From Rugalucina vietnamica (taxonomy: Eukaryota; Mollusca; Bivalvia; Lucinida; Lucinidae): 64,000 nt of DNA. Below, piece by piece: positions 7,395-61,053 of the stretch. The stretch's first letter is position 1. Each line of letters opens with the position of its first letter. The DNA lies in NCBI GenBank assembly GCA_964017185.1, contig OZ024872.1, positions 40,058,188-40,122,187 on the forward strand. Direction: 5' to 3'. The notes under the pieces are model-generated. The model was not told the origin of the DNA, searched no databases, and saw nothing but the letters and a program-made list of their open reading frames with translations. Both the position numbers and the translations under genes were made by a program.

Positions 7395-7549
7395 GCGTGT
7401 GTTCGGGGTTCTTCCAATGGTACCATTGGTTGCTAACATTTGTACCATTGGTACCGATGGCTCTACCATTTTACCATTTGCACAAATTTCTTTACCAATG
7501 GCGCCATTGTTAATTAAATTGGTACCATTGGAGAACCCCGAACACACGC
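7395..7549. mobile_element. Short TIR element filled with GGTACCATTGG motifs
   Basis: Ends are GCGTGTGTTCGGGGTTCT and AGAACCCCGAACACACGC. The inside (7412-7532) is made of variants of CCAATGGTACCATTGG in both orientations. It has no coding capacity. Superfamily not determined; no clear target duplication. Confidence 0.85.
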
Positions 7550-8159
7550 TATATAACTACCATCAAATAAGATGACAGATTAAGACTTCATGAAAGTATC
7601 TATACATAATTCATAGAGGCAAAATGCCAGGCTTAATCCCAGTGATGTAACTGCAAAATTGCTCATCAATATAGCGTGTTTATATGAAATACAATATCCC
7701 TGTAATAAATTCTTGAAATTGTCTGGAATATGAAACAGATAATGCCACCTGCGGTTTCTATAATAGGCAAAAACTAACAAACCCATAGAACATCTAACAC
7801 TTTAAAACATGTCATATTCAGATAACGATTATAACATATGCCGACAACCATCTAATTGTCTGTTGTATAACACAGTTGAAAGATATGTTTGTTTCGAAAT
7901 GTTTCAGAAGCAAAATGAATGAACTATACATTACTCGTGCATTCCACAAAATGACCACTTGAGTGTACTTCGGCTTCTAACAAAAAATATGTTTAAACAG
8001 GACGAGGACATCATGATCGTGGACTATAAGCTACCTGAGGTACATGTACCCACTTAAAATACGTCAACCTTTATAAAAAAAACAACAACAAACAAAAAAA
8101 ACAACAACAACAAAAAAACAGTTCACCTATGTCAGTGACGGAGGCATGACGACACATAT
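7550..8159. other. Intergenic stretch with an A/C-rich simple-sequence tract
   Basis: 8070-8121 is A-rich with repeated AACAAC. No gene seen elsewhere. Confidence 0.4.
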
Positions 8160-8316
8160 GAGCCGCCTCGTGGGAAAACCAACAATGTGGTTTCCGAACA
8201 GGTCTGACACAAACCGTTCTGTAGGCTAGAAGCTTGAAATTTTGGAGATTAGTAGGGGAGGAATTGTACTATCCGAGTAGCGAAAACAAAGGCGCTGATC
8301 AGCTTCGAGGTGGCTC
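8160..8316 (+). mobile_element. MITE family A, internally deleted copy
   Basis: GAGCCGCCTCGTGGGAAAAC to GAGGTGGCTC, flanked by ATAT on both sides (4-bp target duplication). The right half of the central hairpin is missing. It abuts the next element at 8325. Confidence 0.85.
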
Positions 8317-8324
8317 ATATTTAA

Positions 8325-9591
8325 GAGGGTCTGGATGGGGGGTCCTGTTATTCACTAATCACTAAAATGTTAGCCATTTATTCACTGTCATTAAAATTTT
8401 GGCTTATTCATTAAAATTAGATCGATTATTCATTAAAATATGACAATTAATAGTAACGGCTTCTTCACCCAGCTAATATCCATAAGCAAATAGGTGTTTC
8501 CCACCTAAGGCATCTCTTATCTCAAACCACAAGGACTAATTCTATGGTAGATTGCTGAGTGCCACCTTGATACTATAATCTTGAGAGAAACATATACTCT
8601 GCTAGACCACAAAGCCTCATAGAAACTTTCCGAAATAGTATACCGATCTGTTCTAGCAAATCCCATTTTAAATCTGTTGTGAGTATAATCCTCTCCACCT
8701 TATATACTGAATACGCCCTAGGTTTTACCCTGAATCTTTCTCTTCAATTATGAATACCAAATGTTATTTCAGAAAAAAATGTAACTTTAGGTGTAAAAGT
8801 TATATAGATAATTAAAATGCTGTTGTTTTTATTTAGAAAATTAGTTAGCATTGGAGTACTATGTGATGTATGGATTTGTGCTTTGTGCCTGATTGTACAA
8901 TGCATTTTATTAAAGTCTTAATACCGAGCGAGCGAAGCGAGCGAGGAAAAAATTGCCAGATAGATTTGCATTAACGTTCTTAGTGCTGCCTTGTTCCTGA
9001 TAGCAAAGACACTATCATTATGTTCTGTCATATAAAAAAGCAAGATGATGTCCATCTACAGAAACGATTATCATTATAGGATTGTAAAATAAGTGGGGTA
9101 ATAGAATAAAAAGAAAATACATATACATAAGCAAACAAAACAGTGAAATAGTATCTGGCTCAGTAAACATCCAGAATGATTTATTTTCTTTTTCTCTGCC
9201 TTCAAATGACACATTTATTTTTCATCTGGCCCAAGAGGTGAGCCTCTACATGTTTGGCTTCCAGATATATGTCTTTCCAAACATTTAAGGATTTCTGAAA
9301 TATGAATTTGACCTGGGGACGGGTCCAGACCCCAGAAAAAATGAAATTCTGGGATGTCAGGGAGGCCATCTAAGACAATTCCACAGCAAAATTTTAGCAT
9401 ATTCATTATTCTTTAAAAGGTTGTTATTCACTATTCATTATATTATTCTGCTATTCATTAAAAATTTACATTTATTCATTATTCTTTAGGACCCCATTAT
9501 TCACTAATCATTATTTTGTTTACTCTTTATTCACTCTCATTAAAAATTTTAGGCCATTATTCATTAATCATTATACCCCATCCAGACCCTC
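8325..9591. mobile_element. 1.27-kb TIR element with TTATTCATTAAAA-repeat sub-termini
   Basis: Left end GAGGGTCTGGATGGGG, right end CCCCATCCAGACCCTC, flanked by ATTTAA on both sides (8319-8324 and 9592-9597). The inner flanks (8345-8460 and 9420-9575) are built from repeats of TTATTCACT/ATTCATTAAAA in the same sense. No transposase domain is visible; minus-strand frames at 9018-9212 and 9215-9406 are short and unrecognised. Likely non-autonomous; superfamily uncertain. Confidence 0.8.
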
Positions 9592-9969
9592 ATTTAATCA
9601 AAAGAAATTTGATTGCTCAAGTTCTTATCCCATATACACGGTATATAGATCAAATTGCTCCCACATGTCAAGCGGTACATATTCTTTTACGGCCAGAAGT
9701 TATAGATCCAAAAAGATCGAGTGCAAATTTACAAACGACTGAAAAGTGAACGCAGATTTCGAAAAAAAAAAAAATAAATAAAATAAAATTCTCAAGTGCT
9801 CCGTGCTACCCTGCGTCGCCATAGCAACGTCTTTACATATTGCATAACTTTATTTTGTACTTTTGAGAATGGAAATAAATTCACTTTACATTATATATTT
9901 TCATTGAATTTTGAATAGTGAAAGTGTACTTTCGGAAGCAGTCCACAAATTTTTTGAACAAATTTTTTG

Positions 9970-11650: not shown

Positions 11651-11823
11651 ATGACGCGATTTATTTACCTTTAACGCTGATTGCCTTAACATTCATTTCC
11701 AAGGTTTTGTCTGTTTAACTAATAATTACAACAAATGTTTGCCAGAAAATGTCATAGATATCCAAGATAGATTTGTCAACTTTTGACAATTCTTGGAAAA
11801 CAGCCGTTTTATTACAATGATAT

Positions 11824-12058
11824 GAGCCTGTGCGTGAGAAAACCAACAATTTGAGTTCCGACCAGGTCCGACACAAACCGGCCTGTACAGTCTTAGAAGC
11901 AGGCTAGAAGCTTGAAATTTCGGATTTGAGAAGAAGAGAAATTGTACTATCCGTGTAGCGAAAACAAAGGCGCTGATCAGCTTCGCAGTTACTGCGAAGC
12001 TGATCTGCGTCTTTGTTTTCGCCTATGCAGATTGTTGATTTTCCCATGCGGCGGTTCA
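11824..12058 (+). mobile_element. MITE family A, full-length copy
   Basis: GAGCCTGTGCGTGAGAAAAC to CCCATGCGGCGGTTC with a complete central hairpin (GCTGATCAGCTTCGCAGTTA and its complement, about 11970-12010). ATAT flanks both sides. Confidence 0.9.
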
Positions 12059-12339
12059 TATAGTAGTTGAAACATGCTCCAGCAGTCGTGAACCCAACGA
12101 AAGTAGTATTCAGCAGGATATATTACTACAAACCACTCAAAAAATCTGCATGCAATGTCATAGATATCCTAGATAAATTCGTCAACTTTTGACAATTCTT
12201 GGAAAGCCTCCATCTTCAAACAGACGTTTTATTACAATTGTCGTGTAGTTCAAACATGTGAAAGCCAAGAACCAAATGGAAGAGATGTAAATCAGCATAG
12301 ATTACAACATAACAACAAAATCACGACTGCCAGACTCAC

Positions 12340-14575: not shown

Positions 14576-14916
14576 GTTTTCCTGATGCTTAATTCTCAGC
14601 ATCAGAATGACATGTTTTTCACTAGTTTTTAAAAATGACTTGTACAAGTTTTAAGGAACCTGTTAACGTAAATTTTAAAAACTCCAAAACCAGACACAAG
14701 GCGAAGCCATTCGGAAACAGTATCGCTTAAGATGTAGAAAAATATTTTACAAAATTGCCCAGCCATTTCGAGGAAAACGCGAACGGTTTATGAAACGTCC
14801 AGGAATCGTTTCGTGTTTGCGTTGACACCATGATTTGAATCTAATCAGATGTTTGGACTCGCAAAGAGTACCTTTGGCACTGCGACCCGTCAGACTGAAT
14901 TGGTGCAATTTTATAT

Positions 14917-15121
14917 GAGCCGTGTCATGAGAAAATCAACAATGAGGTTTCCGACCAGGTCCGACACAAACCGAGCTGCATAAGCACAGAAAATGGCTAG
15001 AAGCTGGAAATTTAGGATTTAGAAAGAAGAGAAATTGAACTATTCGTGTAGCGAAAACAAATGTGCTGATCAGCTTCGCGATTAGCATATGCAACGTGTG
15101 GGTGTTGTCACGACGCGGCTC
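14917..15121 (+). mobile_element. MITE family A copy
   Basis: GAGCCGTGTCATGAGAAAAT to GTCACGACGCGGCTC. The middle of the central hairpin is truncated (GCTGATCAGCTTCGCGATTA without its full complement). Confidence 0.8.
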
Positions 15122-16594: not shown

Positions 16595-16867
16595 ATATTC
16601 ACCTCAAAAAAGCAAATGTGCTCTATATATGTGTGACGTAGGCCAGAATTATGATTAAAATATTTTATCTGGTAGTAGGCCTACTGGTCTGCTGATGTTA
16701 GTATTTCTATATCTACAAATGATTAGCCTAATTCCATAATGAATTAGCCTATTCTTTCAAAATATACGGGCGGAATTTAATTAAATCTGCCAGTTAACGA
16801 TGCCTATATATCAACAACTAGAAATTCTGGCAAAAATTCAAAGAGCATGTTTCAGTTTCTTCTAAAT
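16595..16867. other. Spacer, nothing recognised
   Basis: A+T-rich, no supported feature. Confidence 0.4.
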
Positions 16868-17088
16868 GAGCTGCATCATGAGAAAACAAACATTTTGCAT
16901 ATGTGAAAACAAAGGCGCAGAAATTGCGAAGCTGATCAGCGCCTTTGTTTTCGCTGCACGGATAGTACAATTCCTCTACTTTCTACATACAAAATTTCCA
17001 GCCTCTGGCCATCTTCTGTGCTTGTGCAGCTCGGTTTGTGTCAAAACTGTTTGGAAACCACATTGTTGGTTTTGTCATGAGGCGGCTC
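16868..17088 (-). mobile_element. MITE family A, reverse orientation
   Basis: GAGCTGCATCATGAGAAAAC at the left and GGTTTTGTCATGAGGCGGCTC at the right. AAAT flanks both sides as a direct 4-bp duplication, and the hairpin is partly retained. Confidence 0.88.
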
Positions 17089-17655
17089 AAATGTCAGATA
17101 CTGACAAGATCATATCAATCAACGAAGAAAGAGAAACAACTGTTGCTTTTTAGGTTCTATGTTGTTTGGTAGTATTTGTAAAAGAAATGAACAGTATACC
17201 TATTTAACCCATTTTTGAATGAATTAAAATATGCAACATAAGCGAAAACTAGCAGAAAGAGGAGAATGTTTCAAAATGATGCAATTCAACGTTCACGTAT
17301 CATCATAACATGTACGTCTAAAAGCACTTTTTATCAAACGTGCCGACTTCTCTTGAGAGTGTCTGTTAGCTGTTATTTCATATCTGTATTTTAGAATAAT
17401 TTCAGTAAGACATCTCGCCAAAATTGATCTAACAAACCGTACCCATATGACTCAGTTTGAAGATACGTATTCCTAGAATTGCGTTCATCGAGACTTTGAC
17501 ACCCACCCCCACCCCCAGCCCGGTTTTTGTGCGCTTTTTGTCACATGCTTTGCCTCATTTTTTTTTAAATCTGAAAATGTCGAAGACCCAATTCACCCGA
17601 CTTCCACTATCAGTTAACTATATACTTGTATTAAAATGCAGCTATCACGGTTGTC
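17089..17655. other. Intergenic, nothing recognised
   Basis: 17500-17525 is a C-rich ACCCACCCCCACCCCC tract. No gene. Confidence 0.4.
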
Positions 17656-18475: not shown

Positions 18476-21400
18476 AAGATGGGATTTCTGGAGAATCTTT
18501 CAATGTAGGAAAACGGTTTATATCTCTAAATACATGCGCTGGTAGGGCTAACTGTCGAATAGTATAGCAGTATGGATATTAAAAGTCTTGGCGGAACGGT
18601 ATCGGCAAAAGGCAAATTTCGTCCTACTAGCAGCATGAAAATGACCAGCAGCATGGGATTTCTGGAGAACCGTCCAATGTAGGAAAACGGTTTATATCTC
18701 TAAATACATGCGCTGGTAGGGCTAACTGTCGAGTAGTATAGCAGTATGGATTTTCAAAGTCTTGGCGGAACGGTGTCGGCAAAAGGCAAATTTCATCCTG
18801 CTAGCAGCACGAAAATGACCAGCAGCATGGGATTTCTGGAGAACCGTTCAATGTAGGAAAACGCTTTATATCGCTAAATGCATGCGTTGGTAGGGCTAAC
18901 TGTCGAGTAGTATAGCAGTATGGATTTTTATCGTCTTGGCGGAACGGTATCGGCAAAAGGCAAATTTCGTCCTGCTAGCAGCATGAAAATGACCAGCAGC
19001 ATGGGATTTCTGGACTAACGTCCAATGTAGGAAAACGGTTTATATCCCTAAATACATGCGCTGGTAGGGCTAACTGTCGAGTAGTATAGCAGTATGGATT
19101 TTCAAAGTCTTGGCGGAACGGTGTCGGCAAAAGGCAAATTTCATCCTGCTAGCAGCATGAAAATGTCCAGCAGCATGGGATTTCTGGAGAACCGTCCAAC
19201 GTAGGAAAACGCTTTATATCTCTAAATACATGCGCTGGTAGGGCTAACTGTCTAGTAGTATAGCAGTATGGATTTTCAAAGTCTTGGCGGAACGGTGTCG
19301 GCAGAAGGCAAATTTCATCCTGCAAGCAGCACGAAAATGACCAGCAGCATGGGATTTCTGTAGAACCGTTCAATGTATGAAAACGCTTTATATCTCTAAA
19401 TGCATGCGGTGGTAGGGCTAACTGTCGAGTAGTATAGCAGTATGGATTTTCATCGTCTTGGCGGAACGGTATCGGCAAAAGGCAAATTTCGTCCTGCTAG
19501 CAGCATGAAAATGAACAGCAGCATGGGATTTCTCGAGAACCGTCCAATGTAGGAAAACGGTTTATATCTCTAAATACATGCGCTGGTAGGGCTAACTGTC
19601 GAGTAGTATAGCAGTATGGATTTTCAAAGTCTTGGCGGAACTGTGTCTGCAAAAGGCAAGTTTCATCCTGCTAGCAGCACGAAAATGACCAGCAGCATGG
19701 GATTTCTGGAGAACCGTTCAATGTAGGAAAACGCTTTATATCTCTAAATGCATGCGCTGGTAGGGCTAACTGTCGAGTAGTATAGCAGTATGGATTTTCA
19801 TCGTCTTGGCGGAACGGTATCGGCAAAAGTCAAATTTCGTCCTGCTAGCAGCATGAAAATGACCAGCAGCATGGGATTTCTGGAGAAACGTCCAATGTAG
19901 GAAAACGGTTTGAATCTCTAAATACATGCGCTGGTAGGGCTAACTGTCGAGTAGTATAGCAGTATGGATTTTCAAAGTCTTGGCGGAACGGTGTCGGCAA
20001 AAGGCAAATTTCATCCTGCTAGCAGCACAAAAATGACCAGCAGCATGGGATTTCTGGAGAACCGTCCAATGTAGGAAAACGCTTTATATCTCTAAATGCA
20101 TGCGCTGGTAGGGCTAACTGTCGAGTAGTATAGCAGTATGGATTTTCATCGTCTTGGCGGAACGGTATCGGCAAAAGGCAAATTTCATCCTGCTAGCAGC
20201 ACGAAAATGACCAGCAGCATGGGATTTCTGGAGAACCGTTCAATGTAGGAAAACGCTTTATATCTCTAAATGCATGCGCTGGTAGGGCTAACTGTCGAGT
20301 AGTATAGCAGTATGGATTTTTAAAGTCTTGGCGGAACGGTATCGGCAAAAGGCAAATTTCGTCCTGCTAGCAGCATGAAAATGACCAGCAGCATGGGATT
20401 TCTGGAGAACCGTTCAATGTAGGAAAACGCTTTATATCTCTAAATGCATGCGCTGGTAGGGCTAACTTTCGAGTAGTATAGCAGTATGGATTTTCATCGT
20501 CTTGGCGGAAAGGTATCGGCAAAAGGCAAATTTCGTCCTGCTAGCAGCATGAAAATGACCAGCAGCATGGGATTTCTGGAGAACCGTCCAATGTAGGAAA
20601 ACGCTTTATATCTCTAAATACATGCGCTGGTAGGGCTAACTGTCGAGTAGTATAGCAGTATGGATTTTCAAAGTCTTGGCGGAACGGTGTCGGCAAAAGG
20701 CAAATTTCATCCTGCTAGCAGCACGAAAATGACCAGCAGCATGGGATTTCTGGAGAACCGTTAAATGTAGGAAAACGCTTTATATCTCTAAATGCATGCG
20801 CTGGTAGGACTAACTGTCGAGTAGTATAGCAGTATGGATTTTCATAGTCTTGGCGGAACGGTATCGGCAAAAGTCAAATTTCGTCCTGCTAGCAGCATGA
20901 AAATGACCAGCAGCATGGGATTTCTGGAGAACCGTCCAATGTAGGAAAACGCTTTATATCTCTAAATACATGCGCTGGTAGGGCTAACTGTCGAGTAGTA
21001 TAGCAGTATGGATTTTCAATGTCTTGGCGGAACGGTATCGGCAAAAGGCAAATTTCGTCCTGCTAGCAGCATGAAAATGACCAGCAGCATGGGATTTCTG
21101 GAGAACCGTTCAATGTAGGAAAACGCTTTATATCTCTAAATGCATGCGCTGGTAGGGCTAACTTTCGAGTAGTATAGCAGTATGGATTTTCATCGTCTTG
21201 GCGGAAAGGTATCGGCAAAAGGCAAATTTCGTCCTGCTAGCAGCATGAAAATGACCAGCAGCATGGGATTTCTGGAGAACCGTCCAATGTAGGAAAACGC
21301 TTTATATCTCTAAATACATGCGCTGGTAGGGCTAACTGTCGAGTAGTATAGCAGTATGGATTTTCAAAGTCTTGGCGGAACGGTGTCGGCAAAAGGCAAA

Positions 21401-30805: not shown

Positions 30806-30811
30806 TCGAAT

Positions 30812-31425: not shown

Positions 31426-31429
31426 ATTA

Positions 31430-40315: not shown

Positions 40316-40319
40316 TATT

Positions 40320-43223: not shown

Positions 43224-43224
43224 G

Positions 43225-43494: not shown

Positions 43495-43690
43495 TCATGC
43501 GAGCGTATAGTGTACCACAATCCGGCGTATGTATGTCGTCTGTTCGTCCGTCTGTCCACAAATTCAAAATTGCTTTCCTATAAAACCGCTCAAAAACTTT
43601 CCTGAAAATTGGCTATGATGATTTGGTACAATATTCCACCATCAGAAATTTGCCAAATGTGAATTTGAGATTGGCGTACTAAATACGCTA
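43495..43690 (+). repeat. Fragment of a CGTCTGTTCGTCCGTC-type dispersed element
   Basis: GTGTACCACAATCCGGCGTA, then GTCGTCTGTTCGTCCGTCTG, then AAACCGCTCAAAAACTTTCC. Such CGTCCGTC-rich heads recur at 17940, 37610, 43808 and 44935. Confidence 0.5.
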
Positions 43691-44261: not shown

Positions 44262-44288
44262 AACTCTAACCCTTACCCTAACCCTTTC
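44262..44288 (-). repeat. Telomere-like TAACCC cluster
   Basis: CTCTAACCCTTACCCTAACC gives three to four degenerate copies of the metazoan telomere hexamer (TTAGGG on the minus strand). It is interstitial and too short to be a chromosome end. Confidence 0.6.
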
Positions 44289-45984: not shown

Positions 45985-46615
45985 TTTTCAGACACTTAAG
46001 GGCAGCTAACTCCATATTCCGCTGTCAAATATGGCCGAATTCGAACTTATGCGAGACATTATGGTTTTCCACGCTTCTGCCACCAAGAATGATGAAGATC
46101 CAATCAAACATGTAGGGGCTAGAGTGTTGACAACACTAAGTATCATTTTCAGACATTCAAAGGCAGCTAACTCTGCAACCATTCATGTGATCTGGTCGAA
46201 TTTCGAAATCATCCAAGATCTTATACTTGTCCACGTTACAAAAATAACGCAGATCCAATCACAAAAGAGGGCACCAGAGTGTTGGCAACACTAAATATCA
46301 ATTTTTCAGAATGTCAAGGGCAGCTAACTCAGCAATCAGTAGTGGGATCTGGTCCAATATCGAACTGATCAGAGATATTGTGGTTGTCCTTGTTACCTGC
46401 AAGTCTGAAAAAGATTTGATTCAAAATAGCCGAGAAAATGTGTTAACACCACTTTCCCCATTATAAGTCTATTGGGAGTTTTCAAAACACACAAGGGCAG
46501 CTGACTTCGTAGTCCGTGATGGAATCTGGCCGGAATTCGAACACGTTGGAGATATTATGGTTGCTATCGTTAATTGCAAGAATAAATAAGATCCAATCAA
46601 AAATGTAGGATCAAG
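45985..46615 (+). repeat. ~155-bp tandem repeats (GGGCAGCTAACTC units)
   Basis: Four degenerate units each with TTTTCAGA..TCAAGGGCAGCTAACTC, ATCTGG..GAATTCGAAC, GAGATATTRTGGTT and AAGATCCAATCAAA, starting near 45985, 46150, 46305 and 46475. The 87-codon frame at 46031-46294 arises from this repeat. Confidence 0.75.
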
Positions 46616-46763
46616 TTTAATTGTGATTGGCCTTCTCGTCTCCGATATACATGTTTGAAAGTGTGGACAGACAGACACACGCACAGACCCACAGACGCCT
46701 GCGTCTCATTCTAAGAGCTCACCCTGTGAGCCTTCGGCTTAGGTTAGATAAAACATGCTTAAA

Positions 46764-46811
46764 GTGTGTGTGTGTGTGTGTATGTGTTTGTGTGCGTGTG
46801 TGTGTGTGTGT
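46764..46811 (+). repeat. (GT)n microsatellite, imperfect
   Basis: GTGTGTGTGTGTGTGTATG and GTGCGTGTGTGTGTGTGTG runs, next to the right terminus of the composite element. Confidence 0.9.
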
Positions 46812-46859
46812 TTCAGAGTCGGAAGATTTCATGTGTTGCCAATAATTAGCATATGGCAG

Positions 46860-47640
46860 AAAATACGCCTTCTGGGTGTGGCCTGTAAAGACCCAAATGG
46901 GGCACTGTTGCAGGATTTTAAAAACGGACTAGTAGCCATTGCTACACACAACATTAAAAGCTCTGGGCCTTGTAGTTTCAGAGATGAAGGTTTTGTATTT
47001 TTCAGTTGAATGTATATGAGAGCCAATGACCCGCAAAGTGGGAACATTTTGGACCCCAATGTCACGATTGACATGATTTATGCACAGCTCCACATACGAC
47101 TGTTGCATACTACGTATACAAGCTTTGAGAATTTTTCATGTATGGGCCCCAGGGGCGTGGTTGTCAGGATTTATGAAGAAGATTACTATATAATGCTACA
47201 CAAAAATAATATTAAACTCTATGCCTTGTGGATTTAGAGAAGATGGTGTTCTTTATTTGGTCCATTGTAAGTCTATGGTTGATATTCGTTGCCATGGAAC
47301 CCAGTTCGGATCCCAGTCGGCCCTAAACCAAATGCAACCATTTCGCTATCTCAATTATAATTACTTTACTTAATTTCAATAATTCATTTTGGCTCCATGT
47401 TGCCAAATTCTGAAGGGTCATTGAAGAGGCTTCAGTAGTTGAAACCGCGGTATGGCCCATCTCCATTCTCTTTGATATGCTCGCTGCTCTTAAAAGATCA
47501 CCGTTTTTATTTTTATTCAGATAAAATTTAAAAATTGCCCTAGTGTCCTTAGATATATTCATGTTAGAAAGTGGGAAAGGAGGCACGCACGCTGGGACGG
47601 ACGCACGAACGGATGCCGTCCCGAGTAATAACCTTACCGC
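46860..47640 (-). repeat. Reverse-oriented relatives of the composite element's internal units
   Basis: GGCCTTGTAGTTTCAGAGAT, CCCCAGGGGCGTGGTTGTCA and TTGTGGATTTAGAGAAGATG are the reverse of motifs in 44-45.6 kb. GGGACGGACGCACGAACGGA at 47596 is the reverse of the CGTCCG tract, so this looks like a second, oppositely oriented element. It contains a reverse repeat G piece (47390-47520). Confidence 0.65.
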
Positions 47641-48424
47641 GTGACCAAAACTATACAAAATATCAAATATATCAAAGCTTTAGACTGACTGGTTCCCGAT
47701 AAATGATTTTTTTTTTCAAAACTTTTCCCATTGTTGTCGCCCGTCACAACGGGTGACATATACGGTAGGATTTTTCCAAAGAAACAGCGAAGAAAACCGA
47801 CAGAATCCAAATAAGAAAATATGTATGGTTCTCGAGATATTTTACATGCCATTTGACAAAGCGGGAAACCAGCAACGTTTTACCGACAGGAACTGACTAT
47901 TGAAAGGCAGAAAGAGATTGGCTAGATCTATTCCGACCAATCATACATTTGGTCTAAAAACTGGTTCGGTATTCTTTGCTGTGGATGGACTTGATTTAGC
48001 GATTATGAGTGTACACAGTCGTTTCGCAAGTCGTTTCGTCTCCTGGGCACAAAATTTCGGTTCTGTATTTTGATTAGGCCGAATGTTCAACAGAACATGA
48101 CACCCCACCACACAAATGGATAGACCGAGGTATAAAAGTGTAACGCGATGTAGGTAAGACAGTTGATCTACATGTATATCCTGACAGATACATGTAACCA
48201 TTCTTACGCAATCCAGGACTAAATGGATGGTGGTGTAGATCTAAATATCAGATAAACGGGCGATAGAGTCTACTAGCTTTTTTAAAAGCTATCCTTGTAT
48301 GTAATGTATATTGAAGCTTATGAGTTTGGAAAAACGAGTATGTGATTACAATTCATTGCTATAGAGAATATTGTTTTCATGTATTTCCTATTATAAGCTG
48401 ATGGCAGATAATGGCGTTCCCGGG
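47641..48424. other. Intergenic, nothing recognised
   Basis: No supported feature. The frames on the minus strand have no recognisable domain. Confidence 0.4.
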
Positions 48425-49270
48425 ACTGGGTCAGTATGCCCCCACTCCAGAAGCCGAGGTGGGAAAAACTAAATTGACAATCAGGTACTAATACAAAGAG
48501 AACATATGGGTGGCTACTCAGTTACCCGGAGTTAGCTAAATTCACGAAAACGTACATAAGAGATGCAAATAGCACAAAAACGAAACACCAAAACTAAAGC
48601 ATTAGAACCAAAACAGAAACATCGCCTTGGAACGGTCTATCTATCATTTTATTACATCATTGTTCTATTTTCTGTTATGCACTAACACACATACTTAATG
48701 TTTGATAATGGAGTTGGGAATAAGTCACGTGAATTTTCAAGCATTTGTACATGCACGTACTCGTGCATGCGAGAGAGAGTAAAGCAGAAAGCGTTTCAAT
48801 GTACATGTGACTTACATGTACGTTTCCGAATATTTGAACTATTTTTTGAAATCAGATGGTAGTTAAAATATATCTCGTTTGAAATAACTGGGATAGCTAT
48901 ATGTGTGTCAATATCTTTAACACAGATAACGTACCAAGTCTAGTATTGTACAGGTAAAAGTAGGCTATGATAAGGAAATGGAGCAATCAGACAGAAATTT
49001 CCACTCCAATAACCGAGATGGGAAAAACTAAATTAACAATCAGGTACTTATACTAAGAAAACACATCGTAAGTCGAATGAGCAACTATTTCCGAATAGGC
49101 TGCATAAGGTGCAAACTTCACAAAATTTCAACACCAAAATAAAATACAAATAGAATCACCACAGAAGTATTGCCTTGGAACGACCAGTAATATAAAATTA
49201 CTGACGGGCTTAAACTTGTTTCACAGGCACCCAACCTCGCCCTCAGCTTCTACAATCACTGTAAATCCGT
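48425..49270 (+). mobile_element. Two copies of dispersed repeat family R
   Basis: CCACTCCAGAAGCCGAGGTG (48440) and CCACTCCAATAACCGAGATG (49001), each followed by AAATT(G/A)ACAATCAGGTACT and CATCGCCTTGGAACG / ATTGCCTTGGAACGAC. The second copy is longer and reaches CCCAACCTCGCCCTCAGCTT. Between them (48650-48940) lies A+T-rich sequence resembling the non-repeated end of the inverted-repeat arm. Confidence 0.75.
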
Positions 49271-49691
49271 TATACACAAATAAAAACAAGAAATAAGGAC
49301 CATCATGTTAAAATATATATTATTCATAGCTACCAACATTTAACAATCATAACGGAAAGCAGGGTGGGCAGCTAATGAAGGTAAGGTGGCCACAGTGCTA
49401 GCTTGGACGGAACAAGTAAAATTCAGAGGACTAAGTGAACAGCTAAATGATATTCGGGTGACCACAAAGTCATGCAACATAAAACTAGAAATTGGAATAA
49501 CTTTAATAAATTCGAACCACAACAGCAACACCGCCAAAAAAAAAACGGCCAGTTATAAACTAGAAATTGTTTCCTACACAAAAACTGATGTCTCCCCTTT
49601 TCTAAGTCCAAACATATTCAATATTCTAGACTTATGATTTTTGTGTCTTGCACGTTGTCGCGGATGTAAATAATGCTATAAAGTTTCTGCA
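49271..49691. other. Intergenic, nothing recognised
   Basis: No supported feature. Confidence 0.35.
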
Positions 49692-49893
49692 TTGGAGAAA
49701 ACAAAGACGCAGATCAGCTTCGCAGTAACTGTGAAGCTGATCAGTGCCTTTGTTTTCTCTACATGGATAGTAGATTTCATCTAATTTCTAAATTCAAAAT
49801 TTACAGCCTCTAGCCATCTGCTGTGTCTGTACAGCCTGGTTTGTGTCGGACCTGTTAAGAAACCAAAATTGTGGTTTTCCCATGCACAGGCTC
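49692..49893 (-). mobile_element. MITE family A, reverse copy in inverted-repeat arm
   Basis: GAGAAAACAAAGACGCAGAT with the hairpin GCTTCGCAGTAACTGTGAAG, ending GTGGTTTTCCCATGCACAGGCTC. It mirrors 30812-31044 very closely; the outer few bases on its left are lost. Confidence 0.9.
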
Positions 49894-49902
49894 ATTCGAT
49901 GC

Positions 49903-51295: not shown

Positions 51296-51298
51296 TTA

Positions 51299-52426
51299 TA
51301 CCCCCATTCCACTGGACGGCGTTTCCACTACGATACGTTCATGGCGTTCTTAAAAAAACTTGTGAAACGCCGTGGAAGCGCCGTCATGTGAAAAAAATTA
51401 GGATTCCCACGCTTTTAGTACGCTTCTAGTACGCTTCGACTACGTTCTCGCTACGCTAGCGACGTTCTTGTCGCGCTACTACAGCGCTTCTACGGCGCTT
51501 TAGGAATCCCCAAGCCGCATCAGCTACGCTTCCACGACGTCAAGGGATTTCTGTCTACGCTTTGACTACGCTTTGCCTACGCTTACTATGTTCCCGATGC
51601 GTCCTTTCTACGTTTGGAGCTCAGGCACCGCGTTTCTGTTGCGTTTTGTCCATGAAAACTCAACAAGTTAAGATCTTTCTCAGCATTTGACAACTAGTCT
51701 TCAAAGAAGATTAACCGTATGGTGCCAGTGGCTGTGTTGCAGATTGCGATAATAAAGTTAGGATTCAACTTCGAGTTGGGGAGGGGGTATATCCTGTTCG
51801 ACCTGACGCGAAGCAAATTCTGGAGTAGGCTCTTGCTGCGGTTCAATTGCTGTAAATCGCCATGAACGCAGCTCAAACGTCCAGAGCGTAGTAGAAGCGT
51901 GGTGGTAACGCAGTCAAGACACCAAGAGCGTAGTGGAAGCGTAGTGGTAACGTAGTCAAAACGCCAAGAACGTACTAGAAGCGTAGCAGAAGCGCGTTGG
52001 TTGATATTGGTAATTTGGTGGAATCGTAGTGAAAGCGTGGGTAGCGTGGCAAGGACGTACATTGCGTAGAGGGAGCGTACTGGGATCGCGGACAAATATC
52101 GCTACGCTTTTACTGCGATGCTGCTACGCTTCTTCTACGTTATGCACGCTACGGCTACGATACTGCTACGCTAATGCAGTTCTTACTACGCTTTTACTAC
52201 GCGTCCACTGCGTTTCGAGTCCACGGAGTTCTCTCTACGTTAAAGTTTTAAATTTTTGAGCAGGGTCAAAACTTTCAAATTTGGGTGGCGTTCAAGGCGC
52301 TACCAGTACGTTTCTACTACGATCAAGGCGTTTCGACTACGCTTCTGGCGCTTTCTCTACGTTTCACTGTATTTTATGCCCATATTTGGAAACGTAGTGG
52401 AAACGCCGCCCAGTGGAATGGGGGTA
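51299..52426. mobile_element. 1.13-kb TIR element filled with CTACGCTT motifs (TTA target duplication)
   Basis: Left TACCCCCATTCCACTGGACG then GCGTTTCCACTACG; right CGTAGTGGAAACGC then CGCCCAGTGGAATGGGGGTA; TTA flanks both sides (51296-51298, 52427-52429). The inside is dozens of variants of CTACGCTTCTA or GAAGCGTAGT: mainly forward at 51410-51610, reverse at 51850-52090, forward at 52100-52370. No transposase. A TTA duplication suits PIF/Harbinger. Confidence 0.9.
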
Positions 52427-52586
52427 TTACACATATATCGTAGCGTTCCACAGAAGCCGTAGTCTGCGGGTTCGAAACATACCTGTGCTAATTTAGTAGG
52501 TCTATATCTTTATTTCTCTACTTTAATATATATATATATATAGAAAAAACAGTCAGAATTCTTCGAGTGACGCACAATATAAATAA
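52427..52586. repeat. Flank with (TA)n tract
   Basis: TTTAATATATATATATATAT at about 52523-52541. A similar (TA)n tract lies at the other end of the next inverted repeat (53901-53913). Confidence 0.6.
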
Positions 52587-53902
52587 AAGTCTGGTAAGAC
52601 AAATAAATAGAAAGTCTGTTGTTGTATTTTTCCTTTTTTCTGTAAGCGCTTTCACGGCTTCATGGCTGATCTTCAGACATAACAAGAAATGATGACGTTT
52701 AAACGTAACGTAGAAACCACACAAAACAAACGTTACGTTTACGTCTTCCGCTAAATGTTTTGCCGTATAATAGCACATTACGTAAAGGCGTTTTCCTCCG
52801 TTGTTATTACGTTAACTTGAGTGCGATAATTTTCAACTGAATTCTTGCGAGCTGTGCGTGTATGTACAAATCACAAGAATCCAGCAACTATCGCTGTTCC
52901 AAACTAGGATCCATCAAATGAACATGTATTCTTTAAACAAAATACCCTTTCGTCATCTACAATAAATGCAACTTATATTCCGGTATCAGTGAACATTCCG
53001 GGAATTATGAAAAAAATACCAATTCAGGGGGAACTACCCTTGAAGTTAGAAATACATATTTTTCATACACATTTGAAAAACCTGGGATGGATGTTGAATT
53101 TAAGAAAAATATATTAAAGTAAATAAAATAATAAAGCTGGAAAATAAAACTACACCTTACGCCATAACCACAAAATCTTTTGAGATATTACGTTTAAAGG
53201 GAATTAATAAGGAATCTGAATTGCACCCGCTATAAACGATAAATTCTTGATACATATAGATTCCGGGTTTTAGTATTTTGTTAAATATTGAAATTTACGT
53301 CCTACTAAACCATTGTTTTAGAAAAACGTTTAGGTAAATGAACATAGATTCGTACAGATCTAAAACGTCAAACGTTAGGCATAATCTTAGTATACAACAT
53401 TAGAGTAAAAGAACACGGATTCGTACAGATCTAAAACGTCAAACGTCAGATACAGCCTTAAACTGTTGCAACAACGTGGAGAATGACTTTTCAAGGTTAA
53501 AATTAATTACGCTATCAAAAAGAATATAGCTCTGATATACACAGAATGTCCATAATATCCAAAAAGTATTAACCGTGTCAGAACAACACACCCCAACATA
53601 TTAAAGTTCATGAAAATAAAAAGTAGATCGAACAAAAATATGTCTTTACATTTATATTACATAGAAAGTACAATAGCATCCTTTGTCTCAAGCCAATTAA
53701 GTCTTACCGAAGAATAGCTTTCTTGTTATGAATTTCTTGTTATGTCTGAATTTCTTGTTATGTCTGAATTTCTTGTCTGAATTTCTTGTTATGAAGAATT
53801 TCTTGTTATGTCTGAAGATCAGCCATGAAGCTGTGAAAGCGCTTACAGAAAAAAAGAAAAATACAACAACAGACTTTCTATTTATTTCTCTTACCAGACT
53901 TA
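52587..53902. repeat. Inverted-repeat element with ~101-bp arms, abutting satellite array 2
   Basis: Left arm AAGTCTGGTAAGACAAATAA ... CTTCAGACATAACAAG (52587-52686) pairs with right arm CTTGTTATGTCTGAAGATCA ... TTACCAGACTT (53802-53902) with a few mismatches. The interior (52687-53725) is non-coding; 53726-53805 holds five units of GAATTTCTTGTTATGTCT. The right arm ends in (TA)n directly joined to the satellite at 53915. Confidence 0.85.
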
Positions 53903-53914
53903 TATATATATATA

Positions 53915-56900
53915 AAGGGCTAACTGTCGAGTAGTATAGCAGTATGGATTTTCATCGTCTTGGCGGAACGGTATCGGCAAAAGGCAAATTTCGTCCTGCT
54001 AGCAGCATGAAAATGACCAGCAGCATGGGATTTCTGGAGAACCGTCCAATGTAGGAAAACGCTTTATATCTCTAAATACATGCGCTGGTAGGGTTAACTG
54101 TCGAGTAGTATAGCAGTATGGATTTTCAAAGTCTTGGCGGAATGGTGTCGGCAAAAGGCAAATTTCATCCTGCTAGCAGCACGAAAATGACCAGCAGCAT
54201 GGGATTTCTGGAGAACCATTCAATGTAGGAAAACGCTTTATATCTCTAAATGCATGCGCTGGTAGGGCTAACTGTCGAGTAGTATAGCAGTATGGATTTT
54301 CATCGTCTTGGCGGAACGGTATCGGCAAAAGGCAAATTTCGTCCTGCTAGCAGCATGAAAATGACCAGCAGCATGGGATTTCTGGAGAACCGTCCAATGT
54401 AGGAAAACGCTTTATATCTCTAAATGCATGCGCTGGTAGGGCTAACTGTCGAGTAGTATAGCAGTATGGATTTTCAAAGACTTGGGGTAACGGTGTCGGC
54501 AAAAGGCAAATTTCATCCTGCTAGCAGCACGAAAATGACCAGCAGCATGGGATTTCTGAAGAACCGTTCAATGTAGGAAAACGCTTTATATCTCTAAATG
54601 CATGCGCTGGTAGGGCTAACTGTCGAGTAGTATAGCAGTATGGATTTTCATCGTCTTGGCGGAACGGTATCGGCAAAAGGCAAATTTCGTCCTGCTAGCA
54701 GCATGAAAATGACCAGCAGCATGGGATTTCTGGAGAACCGTCCAATGTAGGAAAACGCTTTATATCTCTAAATACATGCGCTGGTAGGGCTAACTGTCGA
54801 GTAGTATAGCAGTATGGATTTTCAAAGTCTTGGCGGAACGGTGTCGGCAAAAGGCAAATTTCATCCTGCTAGCAGCACGAAAATGACCAGCAGCATGGGA
54901 TTTCTGGAGAACCATTCAATGTAGGAAAACGCTTTATATCTCTAAATGCATGCGCTGGTAGGGCTAACTGTCGAGTAGTATAGCAGTATGGATTTTCATC
55001 GTCTTGGCGGAACGGTATCGGCAAAAGGCAAATTTCGTCCTGCTAGCAGCATGAAAATGACCAGCAGCATGGGATTTCTGGAGAACCGTCCAATGTAGGA
55101 AAACGCTTTATATCTCTAAATGCATGCGCTGGTAGGGCTAACTGTCGAGTAGTATAGCAGTATGGATTTTCAAAGACTTGGGGTAACGGTGTCGGCAAAA
55201 GGCAAATTTCATCCTGCTAGCAGCACGAAAATGACCAGCAGCATGGGATTTCTGAAGAACCGTTCAATGTAGGAAAACGCTTTATATCTCTAAATGCATG
55301 CGCTGGTAGGGCTAACTGTCGAGTAGTATAGCAGTATGGATTTTCATCGTCTTGGCGGAACGGTATCGGCAAAAGGCAAATTTCGTCCTGCTAGCAGCAT
55401 GAAAATGACCAGCAGCATGGGATTTCTGGAGAACCGTCCAATGTAGGAAAACGCTTTATATCTCTAAATACATGCGCTGGTAGGGCTAACTGTCGAGTAG
55501 TATAGCAGTATGGATTTTCAAAGTCTTGGCGGAACGGTGTCGGCAAAAGGCAAATTTCATCCTGCTAGCAGCACGAAAATGACCAGCAGCATGGGATTTC
55601 TGGAGAACCATTCAATGTAGGAAAACGCTTTATATCTCTAAATGCATGCGCTGGTAGGGCTAACTGTCGAGTAGTATAGCAGTATGGATTTTCATCGTCT
55701 TGGCGGAACGGTATCGGCAAAAGGCAAATTTCGTCCTGCTAGCAGCATGAAAATGACCAGCAGCATGGGATTTCTGGAGAACCGTCCAATGTAGGAAAAC
55801 GCTTTATATCTCTAAATGCATGCGCAAGTAGGGCTAACTGTCGAGTAGTATAGCAGTATGGATTTTCAAAGACTTGGGGTAACGGTGTCGGCAAAAGGCA
55901 AATTTCATCCTGCTAGCAGCACGAAAATGACCAGCAGCATGGGATTTCTGAAGAACCGTTCAATGTAGGAAAACGCTTTATATCTCTAAATGCATGCGCT
56001 GGTAGGGCTAACTGTCGAGTAGTATAGCAGTATGGATTTTCATCGTCTTGGCGGAACGGTATCGGCAAAAGGCAAATTTCGTCCTGCTAGCAGCATGAAA
56101 ATGACCAGCAGCATGGGATTTCTGGAGAACCGTCCAATGTAGGAAAACGCTTTATATCTCTAAATACATGCGCTGGTAGGGCTAACTGTCGAGTAGTATA
56201 GCAGTATGGATTTTCAAAGTCTTGGCGTAACGGTGTCGGCAAAAGGCAAATTTCATCCTGCTAGCAGCACGAAAATGACCAGCAGCATGGGATTTCTGGA
56301 GAACCGTTCAATGTAGGAAAACGCTTTATATCTCTAAATGCATGCGCTGGTAGGGCTAACTGTCGAGTAGTATAGCAGTATGGATTTTCATCGTCTTGGC
56401 GGAACGGTATCGGCAAAAGGCAAATTTCGTCCTGCTAGCAGCATGAAAATGACCAGCAGCATGGGATTTCTGGAGAACCGTCCAATGTAGGAAAACGCTT
56501 TATATCTCTAAATACATGCGCTGGTAGGGCTAACTGTCGAGTAGTATAGCAGTATGGATTTTCAAAGTCTTGGCGGAACGGTGTCGGCAAAAGTCAAATT
56601 TCATCCTGCTAGCAGCACGAAAATGACCAGCAGCATGGGATTTCTGGAGAACCGTCCAATGTAGGAAAACGCTTTATATATCTAAATGCATGCGCTGGTA
56701 GGGCTAACTGTCGAGTAGTATAGCAGTATGGATTTTCATCGTCTTGGCGGAACGGTATCGGCAAAAGGCAAATTTCGTCCTGCTAGCAGCATGAAAATGA
56801 CCAGCAGCATGGGATTTCTGGAGAAACGTCCAATGTAGGAAAACGCTTTATATCTCTAAATACATGCGCTGGTAGGGCTAACTGTCGAGTAGTATAGCAG

Positions 56901-58738
56901 TATGGATTTTCAAAGTCTTGGCGTAACGGTGTCGGCAAAAGGCAAATTTCATCCTGCTAGCAGCACGAAAATGACCAGCAGCATGGGATTTCTGGAGAAC
57001 CGTTCAATGTAGGAAAACGCTTTATATCTCTAAATGCATGTGCTGGTAGGGCTAACTGTCGAGTAGTATAGCAGTATGGATTTTCATCGTCTTGGCGGAA
57101 CGGTATCGGCAAAAGGCAAATTTCGTCCTGCTAGCAGCATGAAAATGACCAGCAGCATGGGATTTCTGGAGAACCGTCCAATGTAGGAAAACGCTTTATA
57201 TCTCTAAATGCATGCGCTGGTAGGGCTAACTGTCGAGTAGTATAGCAGTATGGATTTTCATCGTCCTGGCGGAACGGTATCGGCAAAAGGCAAATTTCAT
57301 CCTGCTAGCAGCATGAAAATGACCAGCAGCATGGGATTTCTGGAGAACCGTCCAATGTAGGAAAACGCTTTATATCTCTAAATACATGCGCTGGTAGGGC
57401 TAATTGTCGAGTAGTATAGCAGTATGGATTTTCAAAGTCTTGGCGGAACGGTGTCGGCAAAAGGCAAATTTCATCCTGCTAGCAGCACGAAAATGACCAG
57501 GAGCATGGGATTTCTGGAGAACCGTTCAATGTAGGAAAACGCTTTATATCTCTAAATGCATGCACTGGTAGGGCTAACTGTCGAGTAGTATAGCAGTATG
57601 GATTTTCAAAGTCTTGGCGGAACGGTATCGGCAAAAGGCAAATTTCGTCCTGCTAGTAGCATGAAAATGACCAGCAGCATGGGATTTCTGGAGAACCCTC
57701 CAATGTACGAAAACGCTTTATATCTCTAAATACATGCGCTGGTAGGGCTAACTGTCGAGTAGTATAGCAGTATGAATTTTCATCGTCTTGGCGGAACGGT
57801 ATCGGCAAAAGGCAAATTTCGTCCTGCTAGCAACATGAAAATGACCAGCAGCATGGGTTTTCTGGAGAACCGTCCAATGTAGGAAAACGCTTTATATTTC
57901 TAAATACATGCGCTGGTAGGGCTAACTGTCGAGTAGTATAGCAGTATGGATTTTCAAAGTCTTGGCGGAACGGTGTCGGCAAAAGGCAAATTTCATCCTG
58001 CTAGCAGCACGAAAATGACCAGCAGCATGGGATTTCTGGAGAACCGTTCAATGTAGGAAAACGCTTTATATCTCTAAATGCATGCGCTGGTAGGGCTAAC
58101 TGTCGAGTAGTATAGCAGTATGGATTTTCATCGTCTTGGCAGAACGGTATCGGCAAAAGGCAAATTTCGTCTTGCTAGCAGCATGAAAATGACCAGCAGC
58201 ATGGGATTTCTGGAGAACCGTCCAATGTAGGAAAACGCTTTATATCTCTAAATACATGCGCTGGTAGGGCTAACTGTCGAGTAGTATAGCAGTATGGATT
58301 TTCAAAGTCTTGGCGGAACGGTGTCGGCAAAAGGCAAATTTCATCCTGCTAGCAGCACGAAAATGACCAGCAGCATGGAATTTCTGGAGAACCGTTCAAT
58401 GTAGGAAAACGCTTTATATCTCTAAATGCATGCGCTGGTAGGGCTAACTGTCGAGTAGTATAGCAGTATGGATTTTCATCGTCTTGGCGGAACGGTATCG
58501 GCAAAAGGCAAATTTCGTCCTGCTAGCAGCATGAAAATGACCGTTTTCCTCGATTTCTGGAGAACCGTCCAATGTAGGAAAACGGTTTATATCTCTAAAT
58601 GCATGCGCTGGTAGGGCTAACTGTCGAGTAGTATAGCAGTATGGATTTTCAAAGTCTTGGCGGAACGGTGTCGGCAAAAGGCAAATTTCATCCTGCTAGC
58701 AGCACGAAAATGACCAGCAGCATGGGATTTCTGGAGAA
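53915..58738 (+). repeat. 174-bp satellite array 2 with 696-bp higher-order unit
   Basis: The phase marker GCTAACTGTCGAG lies at 53919 and at 58443, exactly 26 x 174 apart. Then comes one 173-bp variant monomer (to 58616) and a partial one. CAAAGACTTGGGGTAACGG occurs at 54475, 55171 and 55867, and GAGAACCATTCAATG at 54211, 54907 and 55603, so a four-monomer unit of 696 bp is repeated three times almost unchanged. Confidence 0.98.
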
Positions 58739-59295
58739 GCCATCTAAACACGGTCACTGGGCTAAGGGCCGTTTGATAACTCTGCTTGGTATGGTCCGAT
58801 ATCCCTGTTCACGAGTTTTGCCCGTTTCGACCAAATGCAGTCCGAAGCCACTTTTGGATAGCTACTGCTCAGGCAACGTTCAAAAGATCCATCCTGCTAT
58901 AGTACTCGCTTGTTTATCTGTCCATTGCGAACAGCCAGTGATATACAGCGATTTCCAAAACTACTTGGTTCTCCAGTAATCGCATCCTACCGGAGCGTGG
59001 TATTCGCTTTTCTTGTAGCCAAAAAAACGCTTCGAGCCCTGCTGTTCTGCCAAGTTTCCGAAAATCCATGCTGCTGTACCAGAGGACAATCCAAGCCATC
59101 GAAACACACTCATTGGGCTGAGAACCGTTTTGAAGCTTTGGTTTGGTTCAGAAACCCCATTTCACGAGTTCTGCACTTTTTCGACCAAATGCAGTCCGAT
59201 GCCACTTTCGGGCGGCTACTGTCCAGGAACTGTTAAAAAGATTCATGCTGCTATGGTACTCACCAGTTTATCTGTCCAAACAGGCCAGTGATAAA
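58739..59295 (-). repeat. Divergent satellite units, inverted, part 1
   Basis: GATCCATCCTGCTATAGTAC, CGATTTCCAAAACTACTTGG, CCAAGTTTCCGAAAATCC and GTTTCACGAGTTTTGC repeat the elements seen at 25731-26535 in the same orientation. Interrupted at 59295 by an insertion; resumes at 59970. Confidence 0.85.
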
Positions 59296-59969
59296 CAGGT
59301 CTAAGAGCTGACATTTCAAGTCTTTAAATATACAGACTTACTAGATTTACAGACTGTCTGTAAATCTACAGACTTGTTAAGTATGTGGATATAAAGACAG
59401 TCTGTAAATCTAAAGACTTGTAAAGTCTATATATTTAAAGACTTATGCAGTATTTGATCGAATTTTGGAATACAAAGAAAAAGCGCATTCTATATTTAAC
59501 GTAAATGAATGACCTATACATGTACGATATTCGGTGTGTAAAGTTCGTGTAAAAGTATGGCCTTATTTCCGTGTACTGATAGCAAATAATAACTAAATGT
59601 ATTCCTTGTTGATTATTCTCCCTTTGACCATTGTTGGCGATGAATGTCACCCGATCAGATGATTGCTTGCGTTATCAATTGTTGAGTTATAGTATATGGG
59701 AGAAAACTTTTGTATATCAAAACACATTTATTTGTTTCTTCCATTATTCAATGTTAAGTCAACAAACGATGAACATTTTTCTGCACTATGCAACTGCTTA
59801 TGTAATAAAGCAAATCACAATTGTTTATCAGTGCGAATTTTCCGTATTTCATAATTGTTGCTATTCCTTCGTTTTAGTCTTTAATTCTATAGACTCACAG
59901 GTCTTTAAATCTAAAGACAGTCTGTAAATCTAAAGACAGTCTGTAAATTTATGTCAGCTCTTAGACCTG
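59296..59969. mobile_element. 674-bp TIR element filled with AGACTGTCTGTAAATC motifs
   Basis: Left CAGGTCTAAGAGCTGACAT, right ATGTCAGCTCTTAGACCTG, flanked by ATAAA on both sides (59291-59295, 59970-59974). Next to each end are repeats of GACAGTCTGTAAATCTAAAG in both orientations. It splits a divergent satellite unit, whose two halves join cleanly without it. The 98-codon frame inside has no recognisable domain. Confidence 0.88.
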
Positions 59970-60032
59970 ATAAATAGCGACTTTCAACACTTCTTGGTTC
60001 TCCAGTAATCACATCCTGCTGAAGCTTGGTAT
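59970..60032 (-). repeat. Divergent satellite unit, part 2
   Basis: AGCGACTTTCAACACTTCTT then GGTTCTCCAGTAATCACATC continues the unit cut at 59295. Confidence 0.8.
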
Positions 60033-61053
60033 AGCCAGCATGCATATATCGGCCCGTCAGCGGCATTAAGTGGGCATCGCGGCATATCAGCCCCATGACG
60101 GCCCGTCAGGGGCCCGAAATAACAAATTGTCTGACAAAAATACATCTCAGTGCCAGGAATTGACATTAATGCATTTCTACATTAGGTAGAAATGGCAAAG
60201 AAAGAAAATTATTTGATCTCTGAAAGAAATTCACATTCTCTTAGAGCAGAAAGCGGGCCGCTGGCGGTCCGTCAGCGACATCTTGGCATATCGGCCCAAC
60301 GACGGCCCGCCAGGGGCACGAAATAGGACAATGCCCTACAAAAAGCTGATGCTTGAACGATAAATCCTTGCTTCCTCATATAACTATAACTCAATTATTT
60401 AATGAGTGCTGGATCATTGAGTGTTTCACAAACGTAACACAAAATGTAACAAACAAAAACACAAGAGGGCCCGCTGTCAACCCGTCAAGTCGGCCCAACG
60501 GCTGCCACTATATTAAAGGGAAACAACAAAAATCGATAACATCGAATTTTCATTATTTTACACAGTGTTCTTAAATAAAGGTGTTTAAATAAATATGTAA
60601 ATGATAATTCATAACAGAGAGTGATTCTGACTATCAATTATTTAACTTTTCTAAGTGTATTACTTGTTTCGGTCAATCTCATGGCACTTCATCTTCGAAA
60701 TAAATTTTTATTATATATATACACACATGGAAAAGTAATTAATTCATAAAAACGCCTCTGGTGTTGAGTACGTCTTAATTCATGCCCTAAAACACACAGA
60801 TTCTTCGTTTTCGAAGATTCGAAATGCAAAACTATGTGATATTTTTTGATATTAATAAACTTCTAATTTCTTAATATTTTGCATGTCGGTACAATGGGGG
60901 CAACATCGCGGCAACATAGCGTTTTTCCGACAGCGGGCCGACAATTTTTTACTTTTCACATCCACCGGTGGGCCACTGCAGAATTTAGTTAGCGGGCCGC
61001 TATGCAAATATTAGCGGGCCGTCAGCGGTCCCCTATTGCAATGCTGACTGGGA
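60033..61053. mobile_element. 1.02-kb element filled with CGGCCCGTCAGCGG motifs
   Basis: Left AGCCAGCATGCATATATCGG, right ATTGCAATGCTGACTGGGA; imperfect TIRs around CAGCATGCA. TAT lies on both sides (60030-60032, 61054-61056). The satellite unit reads through if the element and one TAT are removed (GCTTGGTAT / TTGCATTTACTTGTAGCC). GC-rich variants of GGCCCGTCAGCGG and AGCGGGCCGCTGGCGG sit at both ends in both orientations with an A+T-rich centre. No transposase. Confidence 0.75.

Follow-up and report, generated by a model that had tools for sequence, protein, structure and literature searches.

Introduction

Deletion derivatives of CACTA transposons keep their ends. In the CACTA elements themselves, TNPA-type proteins bind subterminal motifs that diverge between families (PMC2613891). 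The BED domains of the hAT transposase Hermes bind subterminal repeats, one end is occupied by several protomers of a single transposase ring, and the precise positions of the binding sites have been argued to count (PMC10368747). For Galileo, THAP domains bind repeats within the long terminal inverted repeats (TIRs), and the multiple copies of this short site are the proposed source of binding specificity (PMC3688188). In mPing, internal regions promote or inhibit mobility and are reported to have no promoting sequence in common (PMC9921582), and corals have miniature inverted-repeat transposable elements (MITEs) whose internal region is conserved (PMC2872659). Here, we describe seven elements, E1 to E7, in a 64,000-nucleotide stretch of the genome of the lucinid bivalve Rugalucina vietnamica (assembly GCA_964017185.1, contig OZ024872.1, positions 40,058,188 to 40,122,187 of the forward strand; hereafter the window), in which a preliminary description had seen one shared design of short TIRs, no transposase and an interior or subterminal region built from variants of one short motif. 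We find that the elements belong to non-autonomous DNA-transposon (MITE) families, probably so in the case of E7 and with E4 excepted as a fragment, and that one design recurs across families that integrate differently and leave four kinds of target-site duplication (TSD). We believe that the families are mobilised in trans and that their arrays are probably subterminal transposase-binding sites retained from autonomous parents. The elements are laid out as follows; positions are those of the window, and features are unstranded unless a strand is given.

7395 to 7549: E1, MITE of 155 bp; 18-bp TIR GCGTGTGTTCGGGGTTCT; motif ACCATTGGTAC/CCAATGGTACC
8325 to 9591: E2, MITE of 1267 bp; 16-bp TIR GAGGGTCTGGATGGGG; 6-bp TSD ATTTAA (8319-8324 and 9592-9597)
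8345 to 8455: E2 left array, TTATTCATTA-type motif
9390 to 9575: E2 right array, same motif type as the left array
33068 to 33724: E3, MITE of 657 bp; TIR AGCNNNTATCTCACTGGAATGCG (18 bp, or 24 bp with 3 mismatches); TSD TTA (33065-33067 and 33725-33727); 11-bp motif running both ways, about TCGYRCGAMTG
42120 to 42625: E4 as first delimited
42205 to 42615, minus strand: part of E4 that aligns collinearly with E3, a decayed E3-family copy; ends not recognisable
51299 to 52426: E5, MITE of 1128 bp; TIR TACCCCCATTCCACTGG... (about 35 bp); TSD TTA (51296-51298 and 52427-52429); 11-bp motif, about CTACGCTTCNN; holds a 42-bp tandem block
51299 to 51650: E5 left array
51704 to 51847, minus strand: E5 middle, possible coding-start remnant; frame MPPRKGRKANATSTATQPPTIEPQQEPTPE... 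in other copies
51880 to 52426: E5 right array
59296 to 59969: E6, MITE of 674 bp; 19-bp TIR CAGGTCTAAGAGCTGACAT; 5-bp TSD ATAAA (59291-59295 and 59970-59974); inverted 9/10-bp motif AGTCTGTAAATCTAAAGAC
59318 to 59444: E6 left array
59876 to 59948: E6 right array
60033 to 61053: E7, element of about 1 kb; imperfect TIR, CCCAG(C/T)CAGCAT... at three independent sites; motif CGGCCCGTCAG close to both ends

Like CACTA elements (En/Spm, Tam1, soybean Tgm/Tgmt*), for which a 3-bp TSD is given, unlike the 6 bp of E2 and 5 bp of E6, these elements combine a short TIR with a near-end array of a short, family-specific motif (PMC2613891). No TIR here starts with the CACTA or CACTG that marks the class, and in E1, E3 and E5 the motif is dense over nearly the whole element. 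The subterminal arrays are a likeness in working principle only. The TSDs of hAT elements are usually 8 bp long, with 5-6 bp in some groups, against 5 bp in E6 and 6 bp in E2, and the arrays are longer here. Several short repeats inside the TIR are common to both, and the fixed spacing in E2 recalls the site positions argued for in Hermes (PMC10368747). Galileo/Foldback elements likewise have a short site repeated several times in their terminal DNA, but these arrays form part of long repetitive TIRs (PMC3688188), whereas the TIRs here measure 16-35 bp and the two arrays of an element do not mirror each other. PIF/Harbinger MITEs (Tourist-like elements, mPing) share TTA/TAA duplications with E3 and E5, and an element-filling 11-bp array is not described in the available part of the mPing account (PMC9921582). 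The search for an autonomous relative, which went through the coding remnant of E5, linked no Harbinger transposase to E3 or E5. MITEs of Xenopus and Donax trunculus are said to carry tandem repeats of a central segment and thus also hold repeat units; here, the units are degenerate, subterminal and, in most elements, present in both orientations. The earlier view that no named class fits was thus too strong, as CACTA, hAT and Galileo/Foldback elements all have published examples of subterminal repeat arrays; the principle is known, and what appears new is its extent and recurrence. The open-licence literature, which leaves out Repbase and most subscription papers and is therefore weak evidence, yielded no account of such a design recurring over several families in a genome, nor of single-unit 11-bp turnover in a MITE.

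Results

First, we find that the elements are dispersed families. Each has copies on many contigs of the own genome (1.09 Gb, 47 contigs), with 596 first-look candidates for E1, 1425 for E2, 2432 for E3, 184 for E5, 257 for E6 and 97 for E7; only the best 40 candidates of each DNA query were scored, so that copy counts are lower bounds and the sample consists of the most similar copies. The scored copies of E1, E2, E3, E5, E6 and E7 have common interiors, and the interiors are thus not unrelated from copy to copy. The first hint of inherited interiors came from predicted proteins, most of them on Mb-sized contigs, which we interpret as translated array DNA: 158 of them (best 120 listed) match an open frame of 120 aa in E3 and 13 match one of 135 aa in E5. 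Among the 120 listed relatives of E3, 106 align on its plus strand and the other 14 were dropped by filters.

Target sites support this picture. Exact TSDs flank 18 of the 20 E2 copies taken from full-length rows (17 of 6 bp, one of 7 bp) and all ten fetched E6 copies (nine of 5 bp, one of 6 bp). For E5, 29 loci were fetched besides the window's own, 24 with both TIRs and five without a recognisable left TIR; an exact 3-bp TSD is present in 16 of the 24 (8 TTA, 7 TAA, 1 GTA), six of the eight misses combine TTA at one end with TAA at the other, and the remaining two have altered ends. The six mismatched copies (L042, L044, L053, L054, L055, L057) look as if the middle target base had differed. 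E1 has exact 3-bp TSDs of varied sequence in 11 of 20 fetched copies; a cluster of E1-family copies lies at G000:C8:5436810-5437313. Exact TSDs also occur in 25 of 29 E3 copies; of the 29, 21 have the left flank of the window copy and four have another common flank; at the six independent E3 sites, four are exact (TTA, TAA, TAA, TGA) and two are not. Ten E7 copies were fetched, seven with the window's flanks and three at independent sites without a consistent TSD; the left end at these three is CCCAGCCAGCAT, from which the window copy differs in its first bases.

Four kinds of TSD result: 5 bp (E6), 6 bp (E2), TTA/TAA (E3, E5) and 3 bp of varied sequence (E1). E1, E2, E5 and E6 are short, non-coding and widely dispersed, with TIRs and TSDs, as MITEs are; for E3, the TSD part of this description holds at four of six independent sites. 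The 3-bp TWA duplication typical of PIF/Harbinger elements is found as TTA or TAA in 15 of 24 E5 copies (plus one GTA) and at three of six independent E3 sites (plus one TGA). From the TSD alone, we presume that the TTA/TAA families belong to PIF/Harbinger and that those with 5-6 bp are hAT-like. The TSDs of whole elements are of the ordinary sort, and the proposal of a self-copying mode of growth finds no support beyond the gain and loss of units described below.

Second, the internal self-similarity is real. In all seven elements, direct 9-mer repeats are more numerous than in every one of 200 dinucleotide shuffles (E1 10 against a maximum of 2, E2 104 against 23, E3 74 against 13, E4 12 against 7, E5 56 against 11, E6 67 against 11, E7 33 against 15). 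The same holds for inverted 9-mers in five, but not in E2 (20 against 36) or E7 (13 against 14). A motif search on both strands called sites over 52% of E1, 46% of E3, 44% of E5 and 41% of E4, and over 24% of E6, 17% of E7 and 15% of E2. The description of regions made almost wholly of motif thus suits E1, E3 and E5 best, the only elements that are motif-dense throughout, with about half of the sequence called even there; for E2, E6 and E7 it was overstated, since their sites lie mainly close to the ends (E2 has five of its 16 called sites in the middle). No open reading frame (ORF) of at least 150 aa lies within any of the seven. Exact or near-exact TIRs were confirmed for E1, E2, E3, E5 and E6; that of E7 is imperfect, and E4 has none at its first-assigned ends (42120-42625).

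E4 also departs from the claim that each element has a motif of its own. It aligns collinearly with reversed E3 (60% over 507 columns, E 3e-26), motif-free stretches included, and is a decayed, reversed copy or fragment of the E3 family. A larger TIR element at 29354-50930 contains both E3 and E4, and the window's E7 sits in a repeated context, so that many near-identical copies are passengers: the flank of the window copy is common to 21 of 29 fetched E3 copies and to seven of ten fetched E7 copies. The larger element spans 21.6 kb, with terminal inverted repeats of about 1 kb that are 99.4% alike and an exact 6-bp TSD, TCAGGA. It is Polinton-like in length and TSD only, and the ORFs listed from 30500 to 49800 include no frame above 130 aa. 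As far as the fetched loci reach, sequence from its 31.5-35.3 kb part recurs at about 91-99% in 21 other places.

Third, the arrays are inherited among copies, and they behave differently from family to family. Within the same full-length copies of E2 (21 rows), the arrays hold five distinct insertions or deletions (indels) over 330 consensus columns and the middle 97 over 968, with 0.030 and 0.027 substitutions per site in the two arrays against 0.046 in the middle. The 40 scored full matches of E6 (best 40 of 257 candidates) all span 673-676 bp. Nineteen of 20 fetched E1 copies measure 187 bp and one 186 bp, longer than the window's own 155 bp, and other rows measure about 156 and 193 bp; these 20 were picked from rows with both ends matched, nearly all of them 187 bp, so that the count is biased and we dropped E1 as evidence of a fixed array length.

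In E3 and E5, single units come and go. Among distinct array indels of at least 4 bp in these two families, 15 of 31 are exactly 11 bp long, against one of 63 in the non-array control, the middles of E2 and E5 (Fisher p 4e-8). Fourteen of the 31 lie in the E5 arrays (consensus 1-345 and 600-1163; 23 of 25 sequences kept, at 1100-1320 bp, with L036 and L046 dropped) and 17 in E3, which was taken whole. Relative to the consensus, E5 shows four gains and four losses of 11-bp units, and E3 shows seven losses; three of these (consensus 200, 209 and 215) lie near one another and could reflect fewer events that were aligned in different ways. Since 21 of the 29 E3 rows besides the window's are passengers, many of these losses need no transposition of E3, and in such copies they look like slippage or misaligned repair. 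At the protein level, no 11-bp indels were seen among the relatives of E3, a test weakened by the frame constraint, the self-similar alignment and the 14 of 120 relatives dropped.

Steps between neighbouring sites on the same strand of E5 measure 11 bp in 21 cases, 20 bp in eight and 31 bp in five; the 11-bp step recurs 13 times in E3 and six times each in E4 and E7. Distances between 5-mers in E5 peak at a period of 10.5 (score 2.97, against 0.41 at 11), a height reached among 90 control windows by a best score of 2.98 (period 15.4) and approached by 2.86 (10.7) and 2.67 (10.1). With the core CTACG alone, the 15 steps of E5 above 13 bp fit a period of 10-11 bp, and 22 of 5000 random sets fit as well. 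Elsewhere, the peaks are 10.1 in E1 (2.96), 10.5 in E3, at the control median only (1.58), 11.0 in E4 (1.83), 10.3 in E2 (1.48, under the control median), 8.8 in E6 and 11.5 in E7; E6 alternates orientation every 9-10 bp, giving a 19-bp period, and E2 has no clear phase. These observations are suggestive of helical phasing for E5 only and do not extend to the elements in general.

Between the two arrays of E5, the middle carries a minus-strand frame, MPPRKGRKANATSTATQPPTIEPQQEPTPE... (MPPRKGRK...), in other copies, and the window copy lacks its Met end. It looks like the start of the parent's coding region left between the subterminal arrays, a reading that is unproved because no full-length gene was traced. 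Further searches were negative within their scope. Pfam models gave weak matches only, none near a family cut-off, on the frames of seven relatives; in searches for distant DNA similarity, E5 found no match among plasmids, nor E3 among phages; and nothing in the window reached the Rfam gathering threshold. Sub-threshold microRNA-precursor scores over the left array of E6 are most simply that array's inverted repeats. Viral contigs scanned for three TIRs gave 0, 4 and 0 matches, and the four have no second TIR and look like chance.

Other features of the window

A further TIR element at 52577-53911 has 114-bp arms (96%), and the 18-bp tandem repeats in its right subterminal part include a piece of its own arm; it is possibly another case of the same design. 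A 174-bp satellite forms three blocks (18479-25726, 53916-58738 and 62349-64000), with E6 and E7 between two of them. Nested inverted repeats of up to 68 bp, with internal direct repeats, extend over 3 kb at 44800-47740. On the minus strand, 4110-6002 holds a 630-aa open frame that combines ankyrin repeats with a SOCS box at its C-terminus. A dispersed repeat with ends like TGAGCCGCCTCATGGGAAAACCAAC is present about ten times, as copies or pieces, at:

348 to 559
3404 to 3612
6895 to 7105
8156 to 8307
11820 to 12064
14913 to 15083
16867 to 17092
30809 to 31050
34466 to 34703
49686 to 49896

Discussion

The motif arrays are placed just inside short TIRs, they are inherited, and those of E2 are more conserved than its middle, an anatomy that fits arrays of binding sites. 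We therefore favour, with reasonable but not full confidence, the view that these are non-autonomous families whose arrays were retained from autonomous parents as subterminal transposase-binding sites. The families would be moved in trans by a parent-encoded transposase; the arrays would bind this transposase, or a DNA-binding partner also encoded by the parent, and each end's array might hold several protein subunits, through which the ends could be paired and cut. E1, E3 and E5 would look all motif because little beyond the two subterminal regions remains. In E3 and E5, single 11-bp units were probably gained or lost by replication slippage or misaligned gap repair, and with steps close to one helical turn the sites that remain would still face nearly the same side of the DNA. 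In E2, arrays that are stable in length beside a middle that is not suggest a rigid site geometry. The earlier proposal of binding sites expanded by slippage is thus retained in part: the anatomy is compatible with binding, and slippage agrees with the 11-bp indels of E3 and E5, not with the E2 arrays.

Several results weigh against this view. The motif of E2 is AT-rich and unphased and that of E6 repeats at 19 bp, so that the arrays need not have one mechanism, and 16 of the 31 indels of at least 4 bp in E3 and E5 are not 11 bp long. Aligned copies were full-length or best-scoring, and those with damaged ends or arrays are under-sampled, which weakens the argument from stable length for E1 and E6 and less so for E2. 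A padded N-terminal protein search with the E5 remnant returned no autonomous relative. In the own genome, with 150 of 197 candidates scored, open frames among the listed matches to the remnant reached at most 235 aa, the longest in rows that match only the second half of the query; the search for an autonomous relative went through this remnant, and no genome scan for transposase families (Harbinger, hAT) was made.

Alternatively, the arrays could be passive minisatellites, in which a TIR-adjacent piece was amplified by slippage or unequal exchange and is carried along by the MITE without a function. The exact gain and loss of 11-bp units in E3 and E5, the 42-bp tandem block of E5 and the E1 rows of other lengths are what such an origin would leave. 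A Donax trunculus MITE reportedly contains tandem repeats. MITEs with tandem repeats are also known from Xenopus (a title in the reference list of PMC2872659). We nevertheless regard passive origin as unlikely, as the E2 arrays surpass the E2 middle in conservation of both length and sequence, the E6 matches scored keep to 3 bp of each other in length, and the same arrangement would not be expected under four TSD kinds. Still less probable, in our judgement, is selection for strand folding, by which two-way motifs would form single-strand hairpins that aid transposition, replication-linked escape or silencing. As single-stranded DNA, E1 (z -9.4, 200 shuffles) and E3 (z -16.3, 20 shuffles), the two elements folded with shuffle control (E5 was folded without shuffles), do fold better than all their shuffles, but a capacity to fold back follows automatically from TIRs and two-way motifs, and E2 and E7 have no excess of inverted 9-mers. 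That unrelated low-complexity repeats or chance were taken for elements is hardly conceivable: satellites and microsatellites abound in the window, and many stretches outside the seven elements show an excess of short words, but all seven exceed their shuffles, E1, E2, E5 and E6 have dispersed copies with common interiors and exact TSDs, and this explanation is refuted for these four and for E3, the case of E7 resting on three independent sites of ten fetched.

Returning to subterminal binding-site arrays, a bolder version is possible, and we put it forward as doubtful. Supernumerary putative transposase-binding sites may have filled non-autonomous elements independently, within a single genome, in families that integrate differently. 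The TTA/TAA families would have helically phased sites (E5 steps of 11, 20, 31 and 42 bp) and array changes of about one turn, so that elements would compete for transposase by site number while keeping to one face of the helix, in a binding-site arms race left in the sequence.

Finally, the same design under four TSD kinds speaks for a general rule by which ends are recognised. Provided that the arrays are binding sites, the families are natural series whose members differ by single sites, and genome copies could show how site number and spacing determine the success of a non-autonomous transposon. The motifs would then also predict the targets of the DNA-binding domains of transposases, or of their partners, in the genome of R. 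vietnamica.

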